Of a stretch of DNA of 64,000 bases, positions 3,580 to 40,397 are shown piece by piece (position 1 is the first letter of the stretch; each line of letters starts with the position of its first letter). The position numbers and the translations under genes are program-made. Origin of the DNA: Sphingopyxis sp. L1A2A (lineage in GTDB: Bacteria > Pseudomonadota > Alphaproteobacteria > Sphingomonadales > Sphingomonadaceae); the NCBI RefSeq assembly GCF_005502465.1, contig NZ_SCOT01000003.1:124001-188000 (forward strand), in the 5' to 3' direction. A model generated the notes under the pieces. That model saw nothing but the letters and a program-made list of their open reading frames with translations. It was not told the DNA's origin and did no database searches.

Positions 3580-3728
3580 CCTCTCCCCTTGCGGGAGAGG
3601 ATATGGAGGCTTGGCGGCTTTGCCGCCTAGCCGGAATTGGAGAGGGGACGGGGCGTCGGCCCCCTCTCAGGACTTGCTAGCCGGCAAGCCGCCAAGCCAA
3701 GTCTTTCCCTCCCGCAAGGGGAGAGAGG
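3580..3728. repeat. Palindromic element, family A (copy 1)
   Basis: About 149 bp. The outer blocks CCTCTCCCCTTGCGGGAGAG (from 3580) and CCCTCCCGCAAGGGGAGAGA (from 3707) are complementary and each is itself a hairpin. Inner blocks around GGCTTGGCGGC and GCCGCCAAGCC also pair. It lies in the divergent promoter region between the ScfR-type regulator and pccB, directly beside the TTTGCAAA array. Similar elements are at 6203, 8559, 14182, 26212, 29766 and 30211. Confidence 0.9.
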
Positions 3729-6202: not shown

Positions 6203-6370
6203 GCTCCTCCCCCCTTGCGGGGGAGGAAAGTGGAGGTTGGGGACTTGTCCCCTACCGGAACTTGGAGAGGGGTTGGTTGGCGAGCCTGCGGCTCGCGACC
6301 CCTCTCCCAGCTACGACTAGGCGGCAAAGCCGCCAAGTCTTCGCATCCCTCTCCCGCAAGGGGAGAGGGG
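6203..6370. repeat. Palindromic element, family A (copy 2)
   Basis: About 168 bp between the epimerase and the mutase genes, which point the same way. Outer blocks CTCCTCCCCCCTTGCGGGGG (6204) and CCCTCTCCCGCAAGGGGAGA (6347) are complementary. Inner blocks contain GAGAGGGGT/ACCCCTCTC and a GGCGGCAAAGCCGCC hairpin. It fills nearly the whole intergenic gap, leaving about 20 bp for the mutase ribosome-binding region. Confidence 0.9.
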
Positions 6371-6391: not shown

Positions 6392-8539
6392 ATGACCAAC
6401 AAACCGACCCTGGACCAATGGGCTGAAGCCGCCGCCAAAGAGGTGAAGGGCAAAGACCTCACCTGGCACACGCCGGAGGGGATTGCCGTCAAGCCGCTCT
6501 ACACCGCGGAGGACGTGCGAGAAGACCCCGGCCTCCCCGGTTTCGCGCCCTTCACCCGCGGCGTGCGCGCCTCGATGTATGCGGGACGGCCATGGACGAT
6601 CCGGCAGTACGCTGGCTTTTCGACCGCCGAGGAATCGAACGCTTTCTATCGCCGCAACCTAGCTGCGGGGCAGAAAGGCCTCAGTGTCGCCTTCGATCTT
6701 GCCACCCACCGCGGCTATGACAGCGACCACCCGCGCGTCACCGGCGACGTCGGCAAGGCGGGGGTCGCGATCGACAGCGTCGAGGATATGAAGATCCTGT
6801 TCGACGGCATCCCGCTTGATCAGATGTCGGTCAGCATGACGATGAACGGCGCAGTGATCCCGATCCTGGCGTTCTTCATCGTCGCGGGGGAGGAGCAGGG
6901 GGTCGATCGCAAGCTGCTCGACGGGACGATCCAGAACGACATTCTGAAGGAGTTCATGGTCCGCAACACGTACATCTATCCGCCCGAACCGAGCATGCGG
7001 ATCATCAGCGACATCTTTGGCTACACATCGCGCGAGATGCCCAAGTTCAACAGCATCTCGATCTCCGGCTATCATATGCAGGAAGCCGGCGCGACGCAGG
7101 TGCAGGAGCTAGCTTTCACCATCGCCGACGGCATGGAATATGTGAAATATGGTGTCGCGTCGGGGCTGGACATCGACAAGTTCGCCGGGCGGCTGAGCTT
7201 CTTTTTCGCGATCGGCATGAATTTCTTCATGGAAATCGCCAAGCTGCGCGCAGCGCGGGTGTTGTGGCACCGCGCGATGACCACGTTAGGAGCGCAGGAC
7301 GAACGGTCGAAGATGCTGCGCACGCATTGTCAGACGTCGGGCGTGTCGCTGACCGAGCAGGATCCCTACAACAATGTGATGCGCACGACGATCGAGGCGA
7401 TGGCGGCGATGCTGGGCGGCACCCAGTCGCTGCACACCAACGCGCTCGACGAAGCGATCGCACTGCCGACCGATTTTTCGGCCCGCATCGCGCGCAACAC
7501 CCAGATCGTGATCCAGGAAGAGACAGGGATGACCAAGGTCGTCGATCCGCTCGGCGGCAGCTATTATGTCGAGGCGCTGACGCAGGAGCTGGTCGATAAG
7601 GCGCAGGAGATCATCGACCGCGTCCAGTCCGAAGGCGGCATGGCGAAGGCGGTCGCGGCAGGCTGGCCCAAGGCGATGATCGAGACCGCGGCGGCGGCGC
7701 GGCAGGCGCGGGTCGATCGCGGCGACGATGTGATCGTCGGAGTGAACAAATATCGCCTGAAGGACGAAGACCTGCTCGAAACGCTCGAGGTCGACAACGC
7801 CAAGGTGCGCGATGGTCAGATCGCGCGGATCAAGAAGACAAAGGCGAACCGCGACGAGGCGGCGTGTCAGGCGGCGCTGACGGCGCTGCGCGATGGCGCG
7901 GCCAAGCCGTCGAGCATCGAGAACAACCTGCTGGCGCTCGCAGTCGAAGCGGCGCGCGCGCGCGCGACGCTGGGCGAGATTTCGTCGGCGATGGAGGAAA
8001 GTTTCGACCGTTACGGCACCCAGCCGACCCCGGTGAAGGGCGTTTATGCCGCGCCTTACGAGGGCGACGCGCGCTGGGCGCAGGTGCTTGACGGGGTCGA
8101 GGCGGTGACGCGGCGGCTCGGTCGCAGGCCCAAGCTGCTCATCGCCAAAATGGGGCAGGACGGCCACGACCGCGGCGCCAATGTCATCGCGTCGGCGTTC
8201 GGCGACATGGGGTTCGACATCGTGTCGGGACCGCTGTTCCAGACCCCCGACGAGACGGTGGTGCTGGCGCTCGACAGCGGCGTCGATGTCGTCGGCGCGT
8301 CGAGCCTGGCGGCGGGGCACAAGACACTTATCCCCGAACTTATCCACAGGCTGCGCGAAGCCGGGCGCACCGACATCAAGGTGATCGCGGGCGGGGTGAT
8401 CCCGCCGCAGGATTATGATTTCCTGCGCGATGCCGGGGTGCAGGGGATTTATGGGCCGGGGTCGAATGTCGTCGAATGCGCCGCCGATGTGCTGCGCTTG
8501 CTGGGGCATAATATGCCGCCGATTGGAGAAGCTGCGTGA
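6392..8539 (+). CDS. scpA: Methylmalonyl-CoA mutase, single-chain (Sbm type)
   Basis: A 715-residue adenosylcobalamin enzyme that isomerises (R)-methylmalonyl-CoA to succinyl-CoA. The N-terminal TIM-barrel substrate domain includes the N-terminal [18 protein letters not shown] and [15 protein letters not shown]. The C-terminal B12-binding domain starts near residue 570 and carries [18 protein letters not shown], whose DxHxxG His is the lower axial cobalt ligand. The length matches the homodimeric form, so no separate small subunit is expected. Its last codons overlap the bioB start (GTGA). The G-protein chaperone MeaB is not present in the window. Function is secure. Confidence 0.97.
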
Positions 8540-9657
8540 CTGAAGAACTGACCAAATCCCCCTCCCGCTTGCGGGAGGGGCTAGGGGAGGGCATGTCTGC
8601 GTCGCTCTCCACTAAACAGGCCCTCCCCCGACCCCTCCCGCAAGCGGGAGGGGAGAGCAGGACCGACTGGACCCGCGAAGAAATCGCCACCCTCTTCGAC
8701 CTCCCATTCGACGAACTGATGTGGGAGGCGCAAAGCGTTCACCGGCGGCATCATGCGCGCGGCGAAATCCAGCTTTGCACCCTGCTCAGCATCAAGACCG
8801 GCGGCTGCGTCGAGGATTGCGGCTATTGCTCGCAGTCCAAGAGCGCCGACAGCGGGCTCAAGGCCACCAAGCTGATGGACGTCCGCGCGGTGCTGCAAGC
8901 CGCGGCGCAGGCGAAGGATTCGGGGTCGCAGCGCTTCTGCATGGGCGCCGCGTGGCGCAACCCCAAGGACCGCGACATGCCCGCGATCGTCGAGATGATC
9001 GAAGGCGTGCGCCAGATGGGCATGGAAACATGCATGACGCTGGGCATGCTGAGCAAGGAGCAGGCGCAGACGCTCGCGGTCGCGGGGCTCGATTATTACA
9101 ACCATAACATTGACACTTCGCCGGAAAATTACGGCAATGTCATCACGACGCGCACGTTTCAGGAACGGCTCGACACGCTGGAGGAAGTACGCAGCGCCGG
9201 GATCAACGTCTGTTCGGGCGGCATCGTCGGCATGGGCGAGACGCGCGCCGACCGCGTCGGCTTCATCCACGCGCTCGCGACGCTGCCCGAACATCCGGGC
9301 AGCGTGCCGATCAACGCGCTGGTGCCGGTGAAGGGGACGGTGCTCGGCGACATGCTGGCCGACACCCCGCTCGCCAAGATCGACGACATCGAATTCGTCC
9401 GCACCGTCGCGGTCGCGCGCATCACGATGCCGCTGAGCATGGTGCGGTTGAGCGCGGGGCGCGAGAGCATGTCGGAGGCGACGCAGGCGCTCTGCTTCAT
9501 GGCGGGCGCGAATAGTATCTTCACCGGCGACAAATTGCTGACAACGGCGAATGCGGGCGACAGCAAGGACGCGGCGTTGTTTGCCAAGCTGGGGCTGCGG
9601 CCGATGGAGAGCGAAGAGCCGATGCGGCAGAGCGCGCAGATGGAGGCTGCGGAGTGA
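8536..9657 (+). CDS. bioB: Biotin synthase with palindrome-encoded N-terminal insertion
   Basis: Radical SAM enzyme inserting sulfur into dethiobiotin. The [4Fe-4S] motif CxxxCxxC is Cys91, Cys95 and Cys98 ([12 protein letters not shown]). The recognisable family sequence starts only at about residue 43 ([15 protein letters not shown]). Residues ~8-40 are encoded by a family A palindrome (8559-8653) read through in frame. No ATG, GTG or TTG lies between the repeat and the conserved part, so at least half of the element must be translated. The GTG at 8536 overlaps the mutase stop (GTGA) and is the natural coupled start; the ATG at 8594 inside the loop is the alternative. Placement in the propionate operon fits biotin supply to PccA. 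Confidence 0.93.
8559..8653. repeat. Family A palindrome inside bioB, in frame
   Basis: Arms 8559-8592 and 8620-8653 (34 bp each) are reverse complements with about three mismatches, and each arm is itself a CCTCCCGCTTGCGGGAGG hairpin. It is translated as part of BioB residues ~8-40 ([12 protein letters not shown] ... PLPQAGGES). Its position close to the start codon places a very stable RNA structure in the initiation region. Confidence 0.92.
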
Positions 9658-12065: not shown

Positions 12066-12142
12066 CGTCATTGCGAGCGTAGCGAAGCAATCCAGAGCGG
12101 TTTACGCCTAGTCTGGATTGCTTCGCTACGCTCGCAATGACG
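12066..12142. repeat. Palindromic element, family B (copy 1)
   Basis: Arms 12066-12096 and 12112-12142 are perfect 31-bp reverse complements around a 15-bp loop; the core is GAGCGTAGCGAAGCAATCCA. It lies between pccA and csaA, both on the plus strand. Six codons at the start of the longer csaA ORF would come from its right arm, which argues for the downstream ATG. A second copy with less perfect arms is at 27656-27753. Confidence 0.92.
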
Positions 12143-28404: not shown

Positions 28405-29748
28405 ATGCCGATCGAACTCAAAATGCCCGCCCTTTCGCCGACGATGGAGGAAGGGACGCTCGCCAAATGGCTGGTCAAGGAAGGGGACGCGGTCAAATCG
28501 GGCGACCTGCTCGCCGAGATCGAGACCGACAAAGCGACGATGGAGTTTGAAGCGATCGACGAAGGCGTCGTCAGCCAGATTCTCGTCGCCGAAGGCACCG
28601 ACAATGTAAAGGTCGGTACCGTCATCGCGGTAATTGCGGGCGAGGGTGAGGATGCGAGGAGCGCGAAGGCTGCTCCGGCGCCTGCTGCGGCGCCCGCGCC
28701 CGCGCCCGCACCGGCTGCGGTAAAAGACGTCGCCCCAGCGCAAGCTGGAGCCGCTCCCGTCAGTGCGCCCACGCCAACGGCGCCAGCTTCCGCCGGGACG
28801 ACGGACAAGGGCGATCGCATCAAGGCCAGCCCGCTCGCCAAACGCCTCGCCGCCGAACGCGGCATCGACCTGGCGACGATCACCGGCACCGGTCCCGGCG
28901 GCCGCATCGTCAAGGACGACCTCGACGGCGCCCCGGCAGGCGCCGCGGCACCCGCCGCCACCGCCAGCGCCGCCGCACCCGCAGCCGCAGCGCCTGCAGC
29001 CGCAGCGCCTGCAGCAGCCTCCGCTCCCGCCGCCGCAGGTCCGATCCCCGATTTCGGTATCCCGCACGAGGACACCAAGCTCAGCGGCATGCGCAAGACC
29101 ATTGCGCGCCGCCTGACCCAGTCGATGCAGGAAGCGCCGCACATCTACCTGACCGTCGACATCCGCCTCGACGCGCTGCTCAAGCTGCGCGGCGAGCTTA
29201 ACGCCAGCCTCGAAAGCCGCGGGGTCAAGCTGAGCGTCAACGACATGCTGATCAAGGCGCTTGCGGTCGCGCTCGAACGCGTCCCCGCGTGCAACGTCAG
29301 CTTCGGCGGCGATGTGATGCGCCAGTACAGCCGCGCCGACATCTCGGTCGCGGTCAGCATCCCGGGTGGGCTGATCACCCCGATCATCACCGACGCGGGC
29401 GGCAAGTCGATGTCGAAAATCTCGACCGAAATGGCCGAACTCGCCGCGAAGGCGAAGGAGGGCAAGCTCCAGCCCAGCGAATATCAGGGCGGCACCGCCA
29501 GCATCTCGAACATGGGCATGATGGGGATCAAGCAGTTCACCGCGGTGATCAACCCGCCGCAGGCGATGATCATGGCGATCGGCGCGGGCGAGAAGCGGCC
29601 CTATGTCGTCGACGACGCGCTCGCGATCGCGACCGTCATGTCGGCGACCGGCAGCTTCGACCACCGCGCGATCGACGGCGCCGACGGCGCGCTGCTGATG
29701 AAGACGTTCAAGGAACTGGTGGAGAACCCGCTGGGGCTGGTGGCGTAA
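28405..29748 (+). CDS. pdhC: Dihydrolipoamide acetyltransferase, pyruvate dehydrogenase E2
   Basis: A 447-residue E2 core of the pyruvate dehydrogenase complex, moving the acetyl group from lipoamide to CoA. Domains: one lipoyl domain (residues ~3-78) with the lipoylated Lys in [10 protein letters not shown]; a Pro/Ala linker; a peripheral-subunit-binding domain ([33 protein letters not shown]); a long Ala/Pro linker; and a catalytic domain ending in the HxxxDG motif [12 protein letters not shown]. Residues ~108-133 of the first linker come from a family C palindrome. The E1 genes are not nearby in this window. lpd follows after a DUF559 cassette. The [11 protein letters not shown] opening and context favour pyruvate over 2-oxoglutarate dehydrogenase. 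Confidence 0.93.
28726..28804. repeat. Family C palindrome inside pdhC linker, in frame
   Basis: Left arm 28726-28752 (core CGCCCCAGCGCAAGCTGGAG) and right arm 28778-28804 (core GCCAGCTTCCGCCGGGACGA) are degenerate reverse complements and match the rnr copy. Translated as DVAPAQAGA ... PASAGTTD within an Ala/Pro-rich linker, where extra length would be tolerated. Confidence 0.75.
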
Positions 29749-29749
29749 A

Positions 29750-30277
29750 ATGCCCGTGAGGGGCCAAAGCCCCTCTCCCCTTGCGGGAGAGGGGTTGGGG
29801 AGTGGGGTCCGCGCCGCGTCTGCGGCGCATAAGACAGTAACCGACGTTCTCGCCCGCAAGGCACTGTTGCGGGAACGCGCCCGCGAGATGCGGTCGCATC
29901 CAACTGACGCTGAACGTCGGCCCTGGTCGATCCTGCGCGCGAAGCGATTGGCCGACCTTCGATGGCGGCGCCAGGTCATCATCGACGATCGCTATATCGC
30001 CGATTTTGTCTGTTTTGAGCATCGATTGATCGTTGAAGCAGACGGTGGGCAGCATGCAGAAAGCCCCTATGATGCCGACCGCGATTCCTATCTTGCAGCG
30101 CAAGGCTTTCATATTCTGCGCTTCTGGAACAACGATGTGCTGATCAACAGCGACGGTATTGCCGAAGCGATACTGGACGCCATCGATTCTTCTGGCGCGC
30201 CGACGCGCGCCGACCCCACACCCCAACCCCTCTCCCGCAAGGGGAGAGGGGCTTTTGAAGGAGCCCATAATGGCTGA
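29750..30277 (+). CDS. DUF559 endonuclease-like protein inside an inverted-repeat cassette
   Basis: Core of about 100 residues (from Met at 29889, RSHPTDAERRPWSILRAKRL, to about 30186) matches DUF559, a Vsr-like PD-(D/E)XK nuclease fold: WRRQVIIDDRYIADFVCFEH carries the Asp, and LIVEADGGQH the E-x-D/GGQ block, followed by FHILRFWNNDVL. The larger ORF (175 residues) reads through the flanking repeats, giving SPSPLAGEGLGSG at the start and PTPQPLSRKGRG at the end, so its true start may be at 29889 or a non-ATG codon just upstream. It lies between pdhC and lpd, overlapping the lpd start by 8 bp. The DUF559 family has no settled function. Confidence 0.85.
   Translation: MPVRGQSPSPLAGEGLGSGVRAASAAHKTVTDVLARKALLRERAREMRSHPTDAERRPWSILRAKRLADLRWRRQVIIDDRYIADFVCFEHRLIVEADGGQHAESPYDADRDSYLAAQGFHILRFWNNDVLINSDGIAEAILDAIDSSGAPTRADPTPQPLSRKGRGAFEGAHNG
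29766..29810 (+). repeat. Left inverted terminus of DUF559 cassette (family A)
   Basis: Begins AAAGCCCCTCTCCCCTTGCG; itself contains the CCTCTCCCCTTGCGGGAGAGG hairpin-type core. Pairs with 30211-30255. Confidence 0.9.
30211..30255 (-). repeat. Right inverted terminus of DUF559 cassette (family A)
   Basis: Reverse complement begins AAAGCCCCTCTCCCCTTGCG, matching the left terminus. It ends 15 bp before the lpd start codon. Confidence 0.9.
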
Positions 30278-36721: not shown

Positions 36722-36816
36722 ATCGTCGCCCCCGCGAAGGCGGGGGCCGCTGGAGGCCTGTGCCGACATGGCAGGATAAAACGACGGCGGCCCCCACCTT
36801 CGCGGGGGCGACGGAT
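36722..36816. repeat. Palindromic element, family C (intergenic copy)
   Basis: Left arm 36722-36748 (core CGTCGCCCCCGCGAAGGCGG) and right arm 36789-36816 are near-perfect reverse complements. It is the intergenic relative of the elements inside rnr and pdhC and lies between the convergent amidohydrolase and phosphatase genes. Confidence 0.9.
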
Positions 36817-40291: not shown

Positions 40292-40306
40292 GTTCCTCCC
40301 TGTATT

Positions 40307-40386
40307 CCGTTCGCATCGAGCGAAGTCGAGATGCCTTTCGGCCATGCGCGACTTCACCGTGTCTCGACTTCGCTCGACACGAACGG
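40307..40386. repeat. Palindromic element, family D (copy 2)
   Basis: Arms 40307-40334 and 40359-40386 share the core TCGAGCGAAGTCGAGA and are reverse complements with a few mismatches (CGCATCG against CGTGTCG). It lies between the convergent short acyl-CoA dehydrogenase gene and the CoA-transferase gene. Related to 2052-2133. Confidence 0.88.
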
Positions 40387-40397
40387 AGGTCGGAGAA

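Follow-up and report, generated by a model that had tools for sequence, protein, structure and literature searches.

REP/REPIN-RAYT systems consist of GTAG-tagged REP palindromes arranged in inverse pairs, two of which enclose a single enzyme gene; short pairs without the gene are many, copies of the enzyme few. Short gene-less copies with common ends, as well as hairpin ends, are likewise known from miniature inverted-repeat transposable elements (MITEs) and IS200/IS605. A further repeat class, the intrastrand triplex repeats TM/PIT of E. coli and other bacteria, has the consensus CCCTCNCCCN3-6GGGNGAGGGN3GGGNGAGGG and, according to the paper describing it, mobility activities were never found near its E. 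coli sites (PMC4666352). Here, a locus is described from a 64,000-nt stretch of the genome of Sphingopyxis sp. L1A2A (the entire stretch analysed, hereafter the window), where inverted palindromes enclose a single small gene with a DUF559 domain between pdhC and lpd. The pairing of such palindromes with DUF559 recurs in many bacteria, beyond the sphingomonads, and we consider it, with a probability of about 60 %, to represent a compact palindrome-nuclease unit that works in a RAYT-like manner, has short non-autonomous copies and spreads via cutting and host repair. In the titles and abstract openings of the literature searched, no report of a link between DUF559 and repeats or palindromes was found.

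At this locus, two arms of 49 nt, 96 % complementary and 392 nt apart, form the longest inverted pair in the window among pairs with arms at most 1500 nt apart, and the sole gene between them codes for a DUF559 domain (PF04480, E 9.5e-36). A preliminary description of this DNA had recognized near-identical inverse termini around one gene, together filling the pdhC-lpd gap, and both points are borne out, the unit being placed between the pdhC stop at 29748 and the lpd start at 30270 (see the table). The Vsr-like PD-(D/E)XK features that it noted in the core of the gene likewise agree with the domain match and with the predicted fold, which is that of Vsr and of a homing endonuclease by both fold criteria applied, in an alignment built from 54 of the 80 named loci introduced below, by whose numbering D68 and H72 are conserved. 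The gene is under purifying selection. Beside DUF559, the enclosed frame has a sub-threshold match to MTES_1575; these two were all that was met there, with no DDE, HUH or serine transposase gene, and the enclosed protein, which corresponds to PF04480, has no Y1 match. Three elements make up each end: the outer hairpin CCCCTCTCCC-CTTGC-GGGAGAGGGG, a G-rich tail directed at the gene and, as read from the letters of the window, an inner hairpin that differs in sequence. The exact flank GGGAGAGGGGTTGGGG, without mismatch, is confined to the two ends of this unit.

That such flanks are a recurrent attribute of DUF559 genes can be seen from a flank score, i.e., upstream sequence (250 nt) aligned locally to the reverse-complemented downstream sequence (250 nt), for which a cut-off of 36 was used and in which the pdhC-lpd unit reaches 99. 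Altogether, 176 DUF559 loci were gathered, five of them with flanks too short for scoring, and 131 of the remaining 171 score at least 36: five of six in the L1A2A genome, 75 of 86 in its relatives and 51 of 79 in named genomes, a multi-phylum sample in which close relatives of the query are favoured (the best 80 of 242). The same value is reached by 1/332 displaced intervals of the same loci, 0/855 shuffled flanks, 4/3000 random intervals of the L1A2A genome and 2/447 same-size intervals slid along the window outside this locus (both falling on a different palindrome pair, at about 3.3–3.5 kb), and these controls rule out a chance origin of the flanks. A search of 60 genomes, L1A2A included, gave 110 DUF559 matches, of which four at contig edges and one at a contig start (G037) were left out, and 86 of the 105 scored are at or above the cut-off. 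The expectation of the preliminary description that DUF559 genes elsewhere would usually be flanked in this way is thus upheld, both in these genomes and in the named sample, as against the displaced intervals. Of the 13 weakest matches of that search, six score at least 60, and six of the seven flankless ones are partial matches or lie inside long frames. Hairpins flank both sides of 114 of 173 loci vs none of the 332 displaced intervals. Among the named loci from outside Alphaproteobacteria, with flanks of 300 nt, scores of, for example, 70 (Acidovorax), 64 (Halopseudomonas), 56 (a Desulfuromonadales MAG, i.e., metagenome-assembled genome) and 47 (a Flavobacteriales MAG) were obtained, and two Nitrospira loci fell under the cut-off (33 and 24). 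Ends taken from different loci and cross-paired score at least 36 in 468 of 2000 cases, which indicates that ends are common within subfamilies and is no argument against the DUF559-palindrome link; the similarity of ends follows DUF559 identity, even inside single genomes.

The palindromes are also scattered without a gene. The pattern CTCCCN{1,2}TTGCGGGAG has 33 matches in the L1A2A genome and none for the reversed control, and in the 1.65 Mb (44 %) of this genome scanned for hairpin pairs (CTCCC/GGGAG stem of at least 9, neighbours less than 700 nt apart) 56 hairpins were found vs 2 in a shuffled copy. These resolve into 18 single hairpins and 19 neighbour pairs, the latter falling into two size classes—15 short pairs, 48–132 nt apart, and four long pairs, 405–431 nt apart—with a DUF559 gene inside each of the four long ones. 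Both tails could be called in 11 of the 19 pairs, 10 of which face inward; among the short pairs, both orientations were callable in eight of 15, and seven of these are inverted. Seven DUF559 matches exist in the L1A2A genome, six with flanks of sufficient length for comparison; besides the five at or above the cut-off, the sixth (on C69) also lies between two CTCCC/GGGAG hairpins, and the seventh is at a contig edge, and the palindromes are not alike from one gene to another. In one subfamily, type b, all seven readable gene-less pairs combine one YCGGGGG end with one YTAGGGG end, a combination found in seven of the 11 type-b DUF559 units, with a double YCGGGGG in three and another form in one. 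The termini had earlier been assigned to a single scattered family, of which the scattering stands, while the scattered copies are better described as related subfamilies, the exact flank being found only here. In the same vein, the short pairs do resemble gene-less versions of the unit, as had been suggested, and would be its non-autonomous copies if the unit moves, as we infer that it does.

The two components further track each other across Pseudomonadota. Genomes were taken as hairpin-rich from three CCCTCTCCC/GGGAGAGGG hairpins upward, and the threshold for a DUF559 match was 50 bits in Alphaproteobacteria and E <=1e-12 in the rest of the phylum; the per-genome tables of both sets were transcribed by hand. 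Among 192 alphaproteobacterial genomes, it is present in 26 of the 29 hairpin-rich vs 20 of the 163 others (odds ratio 62, p 1.4e-16); in a second set, made up only of 186 genomes from outside this class, it is present in 20 of 29 vs 7 of 157 (p 1.7e-14). Hairpin numbers of 203 to 322 are reached in five genomes (G309, G313, G451, G467 and G510), each with just one or two DUF559 matches, a proportion that recalls REPIN/RAYT numbers.

The limits of the unit are discernible where related units occupy different sites. Among 33 such pairs, the left hairpin is no more than 12 nt from the start of DNA homology in 30, and the right one no more than 16 nt from its end in 27, with median offsets of -3 (left) and +3 (right), and one genome, G004, by itself holds two related units at different sites (L187, L188). 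Across Sphingomonadales, 104 loci are distributed over 26 sites. The pdhC-lpd junction is filled by a DUF559 unit in 13 of 45 Sphingopyxis genomes, empty (a gap of 0–8 nt) in 10 and occupied by other sequence in 22, so that the cassette is not fixed there, as had been predicted for a mobile unit. Each of the 13 units has two hairpins, three unit types can be told apart by reading, and one of the 22 other sites (in G068) retains a single right-end hairpin. On an lpd tree of the 45 genomes, with support below 80 % on 15 of its 42 inner branches, 10 state changes are required, and G021 (empty), G004 (filled) and G034 (other) cluster at 97 %. At the fabI-aroC junction, the L1A2A genome has DUF559, most of 29 readable loci from relatives and this genome have a GNAT-like gene, three have a VOC-like gene (read from its translation) and two have no gap; four other genomes contain DUF559 loci with fabI-aroC flanks. 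As an observation in itself, both operon junctions house different small genes, or none, depending on the Sphingopyxis species.

A parallel might be struck with a second nuclease domain. A scan of the same part of the L1A2A genome for gene-sized pairs (250–1500 nt, score at least 36), whose E-value limit drops weak pairs on long contigs and which recovered four of the seven DUF559 genes, yielded 20 inverted pairs. Four hold DUF559 and four hold GIY-YIG (PF01541, E 8e-18 to 3e-11), the latter with other palindrome families than the DUF559 pairs; by reading, the other 12 comprise two palindrome pairs with a spacing above 1.3 kb, the remainder resembling coding sequence. The GIY-YIG profile was made from the four enclosed proteins and is therefore silent on the share of GIY-YIG genes that lack palindromes. 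It is possible, at somewhat short of even odds in our estimation, that mobile palindrome elements form a general bacterial class driven by small homing-type nucleases, with each family having its own—DUF559 for the TM/PIT-like CTCCC/GGGAG families and GIY-YIG for several others—and with the hundreds of scattered palindromes of many genomes as the non-autonomous copies.

The relation to TM/PIT can be followed to E. coli. A relaxed TM consensus is present in the expected orientation at 49 of the 80 named DUF559 loci, at 13 of the 93 from the L1A2A genome and its relatives and in 2 of the 332 displaced intervals. The preliminary description had presented the unit as undescribed, and this has to be qualified by the resemblance of its palindromes to this known class. 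For TMECO, triplex formation in vitro is reported in PMC4666352, in whose main text no word starting with 'nuclease' appears. In K-12, copy 9 of the 23 TMECO copies (1351204-1351239) lies between fabI and ycjD, a DUF559 gene (1351407-1351760). By reading, part of a second hairpin coincides with the ycjD stop codon, and the hairpins are separated by a degenerate copy of the 3' end of ycjD; both hairpins are 3' of the gene, so that ycjD in K-12 is no clean enclosed unit. This degenerate second 3' end, which adjoins TMECO 9 (NC_000913.3 1351040-1351407, L245), is recorded here as a peculiarity of the locus. Of 5426 complete E. coli genomes, 3333 cover at least 80 % of the fabI-ycjD-sapF stretch, and ycjD failed as a clean insertion test, three strains without it having transporter genes adjoining sapF; no DUF559 match came from the E. 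coli control genome. Alleles were compared for presence and absence at further E. coli hairpin pairs, where a difference may reflect gain or loss. At fepB-entC (L412, L417), a 186-nt stretch with the pair is absent from one strain compared, and the filled region is covered to at least 80 % in 2752 of the 5426 genomes; hrpB-mrcB has alleles of about 117 nt and 15 nt; alx-sstT has an allele with an internal loss, in which one hairpin is left, and also a longer, third allele; at ygfF-gcvP, neither of the two strains compared has a clean empty allele, the neighbour gene differing; and a fifth pair lies at lldD-trmL. The recurrence of the DUF559-palindrome pairing suggests that a widespread repeat family without a known mover may be spread by a nuclease rather than a transposase.

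Under the palindrome-nuclease reading, two inverse hairpin ends and the one small nuclease gene they enclose would act as a compact unit. The DUF559 protein, whose nuclease activity we infer, would recognize its own family's ends, in hairpin or possibly triplex form, most likely while they are single-stranded during replication, and would cut or nick at the ends or at a target, whereupon host repair could copy the unit, or a gene-less end pair, into a new site. Short pairs elsewhere would be non-autonomous copies served in trans, the whole being comparable in its working to RAYT and its REP/REPIN population, save that a Vsr/homing-type PD-(D/E)XK nuclease takes the place of the Y1 transposase.

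Several observations weigh against this reading. PD-(D/E)XK nucleases by themselves are not known to have a strand-transfer step. In the L1A2A genome, a CTCCC/GGGAG pair surrounds four of the seven DUF559 genes, two others having other palindromes and one lying at a contig edge; type-b gene-less pairs are present and no type-b DUF559 was noticed among the seven, and the two end types were not seen in four of the 11 type-b units. Flank scores are below 30 at 31 of the 171 loci, the named sample accounting for 23 of these, and TM-like motifs occur reversed upstream at 15 and downstream at 14 of 176 loci, compared with 43 and 38 among 173 for the expected orientation. Three of the 29 hairpin-rich alphaproteobacterial genomes and nine of the 29 from the rest of the phylum are without a DUF559 match, and none is listed for G485 (141 hairpins), G305 (57) and G416 (32). 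Of the 33 different-site pairs, just 16 have the two borders inside 12 nt, and both flanks are common to 197 of the 260 locus pairs whose protein identity is at least 0.6, which implies that movement of the unit is rare or old. The target duplications for which a check had been proposed were not seen: none is readable between empty and filled pdhC-lpd sites, whose flanks have diverged, nor among G021, G004 and G034. The RAYT-like role earlier suggested for DUF559 in sphingomonads draws support from the flanks (86/105 and 51/79) and the unfixed cassette, and needs amending in that it is not confined to sphingomonads and that most related units sit at shared sites.

The main rival is a plain homing gene, whose nuclease would cut a preferred junction lacking the unit, such as pdhC-lpd, into which recombination between the flanks would copy the unit, the palindromes being mere edges rather than a substrate. 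The predicted homing-endonuclease fold would suit it, as would the 10 state changes on the lpd tree with its empty sites, the hosting of related and unrelated unit types by the same junctions, and 118 same-site pairs with protein identity below 0.6 (short-overlap fragments included). Homing, however, needs neither scattered gene-less pairs of the same palindromes nor a phylum-wide tracking of DUF559 by hairpin number nor related units with hairpin borders at different sites, and we regard it as unlikely. Still less probable is that the palindromes are spread by another enzyme or by replication slippage, with DUF559 as cargo trapped between two of them: hairpin-rich genomes without DUF559, such as G485, speak for this, as does the instability to which triplex repeats are linked on their own in PMC4666352, and against it stand the DUF559 genes in all four long hairpin pairs and the same flanks at DUF559 loci of several phyla. 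It is also opposed by the want of a Y1 transposase in the L1A2A genome, the only one in which a RAYT partner (PF01797, Y1_Tnp) was sought, none being found at E up to 0.001.

A resident function, in which DUF559 would be a Vsr-like mismatch-repair enzyme and the palindromes terminators or insulators, appears quite improbable: the inverse orientation, the two size classes, the co-occurrence, the hairpin borders and the empty sites would be left unexplained, and PIT motifs had neither promoter nor terminator activity in earlier work cited in PMC4666352. That the arrangement is due to chance or to an annotation artefact can practically be dismissed, nothing having been found in its favour and the flank score having been reached by so few of the shuffled and displaced controls.

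The features of the unit and of other palindrome pairs are compiled in the table. By the repeat search, the pair at 6206..6368 is inverted, yet tail calls give one direction for both of its hairpins; the second hairpin of the pair at 3581..3725 is too short for the 1.65-Mb scan. Apart from these, short inverted pairs of other palindrome families (TCGAGCGAAGTCGA, GCAATGACG and CCCGCGAAGGCGGGG types) lie in the window at 2047-2138, 12066-12142, 36724-36813 and 40306-40387, and in relatives the 5' part of bioB (window 8536-8660) contains in-frame pairs of quite different palindrome families, or none.

Table. Coordinates of the pdhC-lpd unit and of other palindrome pairs in the Sphingopyxis sp. 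L1A2A genome (window positions unless a contig is given).
Feature	Position	Strand	Remarks
Left end, 49-nt arm	29766..29814	+	outer hairpin 29770-29794 (CCCCTCTCCC-CTTGC-GGGAGAGGGG), G-rich tail toward gene
Left-end inner hairpin GCGCCGC-GTCT-GCGGCGC	29811..29828	+	read from window letters
DUF559 (Vsr-like PD-(D/E)XK) open frame	29750..30277	+	domain 29870-30184; frame continues across both palindromes
Right-end inner hairpin GGCGCGC-CGAC-GCGCGCC	30194..30211	-	read from window letters
Right end, inverted copy of left arm	30207..30255	-	outer hairpin 30227-30251
Gene-less inverted pair, type-b subfamily	8559..8653	.	in frame in bioB 5' part
Gene-less inverted pair, CTCTCCCCTTGCGGGAGAG subfamily	3581..3725	.	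with inner hairpin, 80 % complementary
Gene-less palindrome pair	6206..6368	.	hairpins 6204-6228 and 6346-6370
GIY-YIG-enclosing pairs, outside the window	C69:66682-67183, C55:173-658, C55:125736-126235, C22:82284-82681		loci L345, L350, L356, L394

If the palindrome-nuclease reading is true, it would suggest that REPIN-like repeat populations arose repeatedly, each time with an unrelated enzyme, and would give a role to DUF559, whose present name marks it as a domain of unknown function; the recurrent partner enzyme also makes the question of TM/PIT mobility testable, including in E. coli K-12, where ycjD adjoins one of the 23 copies. Placed beside the known systems, the window palindromes share with TM/PIT the CCCTCTCCC-loop-GGGAGAGGG build and the G-rich tail, and their ends fit the first and second blocks of the consensus but depart in the third, purine block (GGGGAGTGGGG). 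In five E. coli pairs, type A is always joined to a type B motif, as stated in PMC4666352, a pairing that recalls the two end types seen here. Gene-less short copies, common ends and hairpin ends link the unit to MITEs and IS200/IS605, from which it differs in enclosing only DUF559, with no transposase and no target duplication read. I-Bth0305I, a Vsr-like homing endonuclease, is named as a mobile intron protein, whereas DUF559 here stands alone between palindromes. With REP/REPIN-RAYT, the unit has in common an enzyme gene enclosed by inverted palindromes and many short gene-less pairs (15 in 1.65 Mb); the palindromes differ from REP in being G/C-rich purine-pyrimidine hairpins with a G-rich tail, and the enzyme is DUF559 (PD-(D/E)XK) rather than Y1/HUH. 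Membership among the RAYT systems thus fails on the enzyme, and a RAYT-like way of working is still the best reading of the unit.
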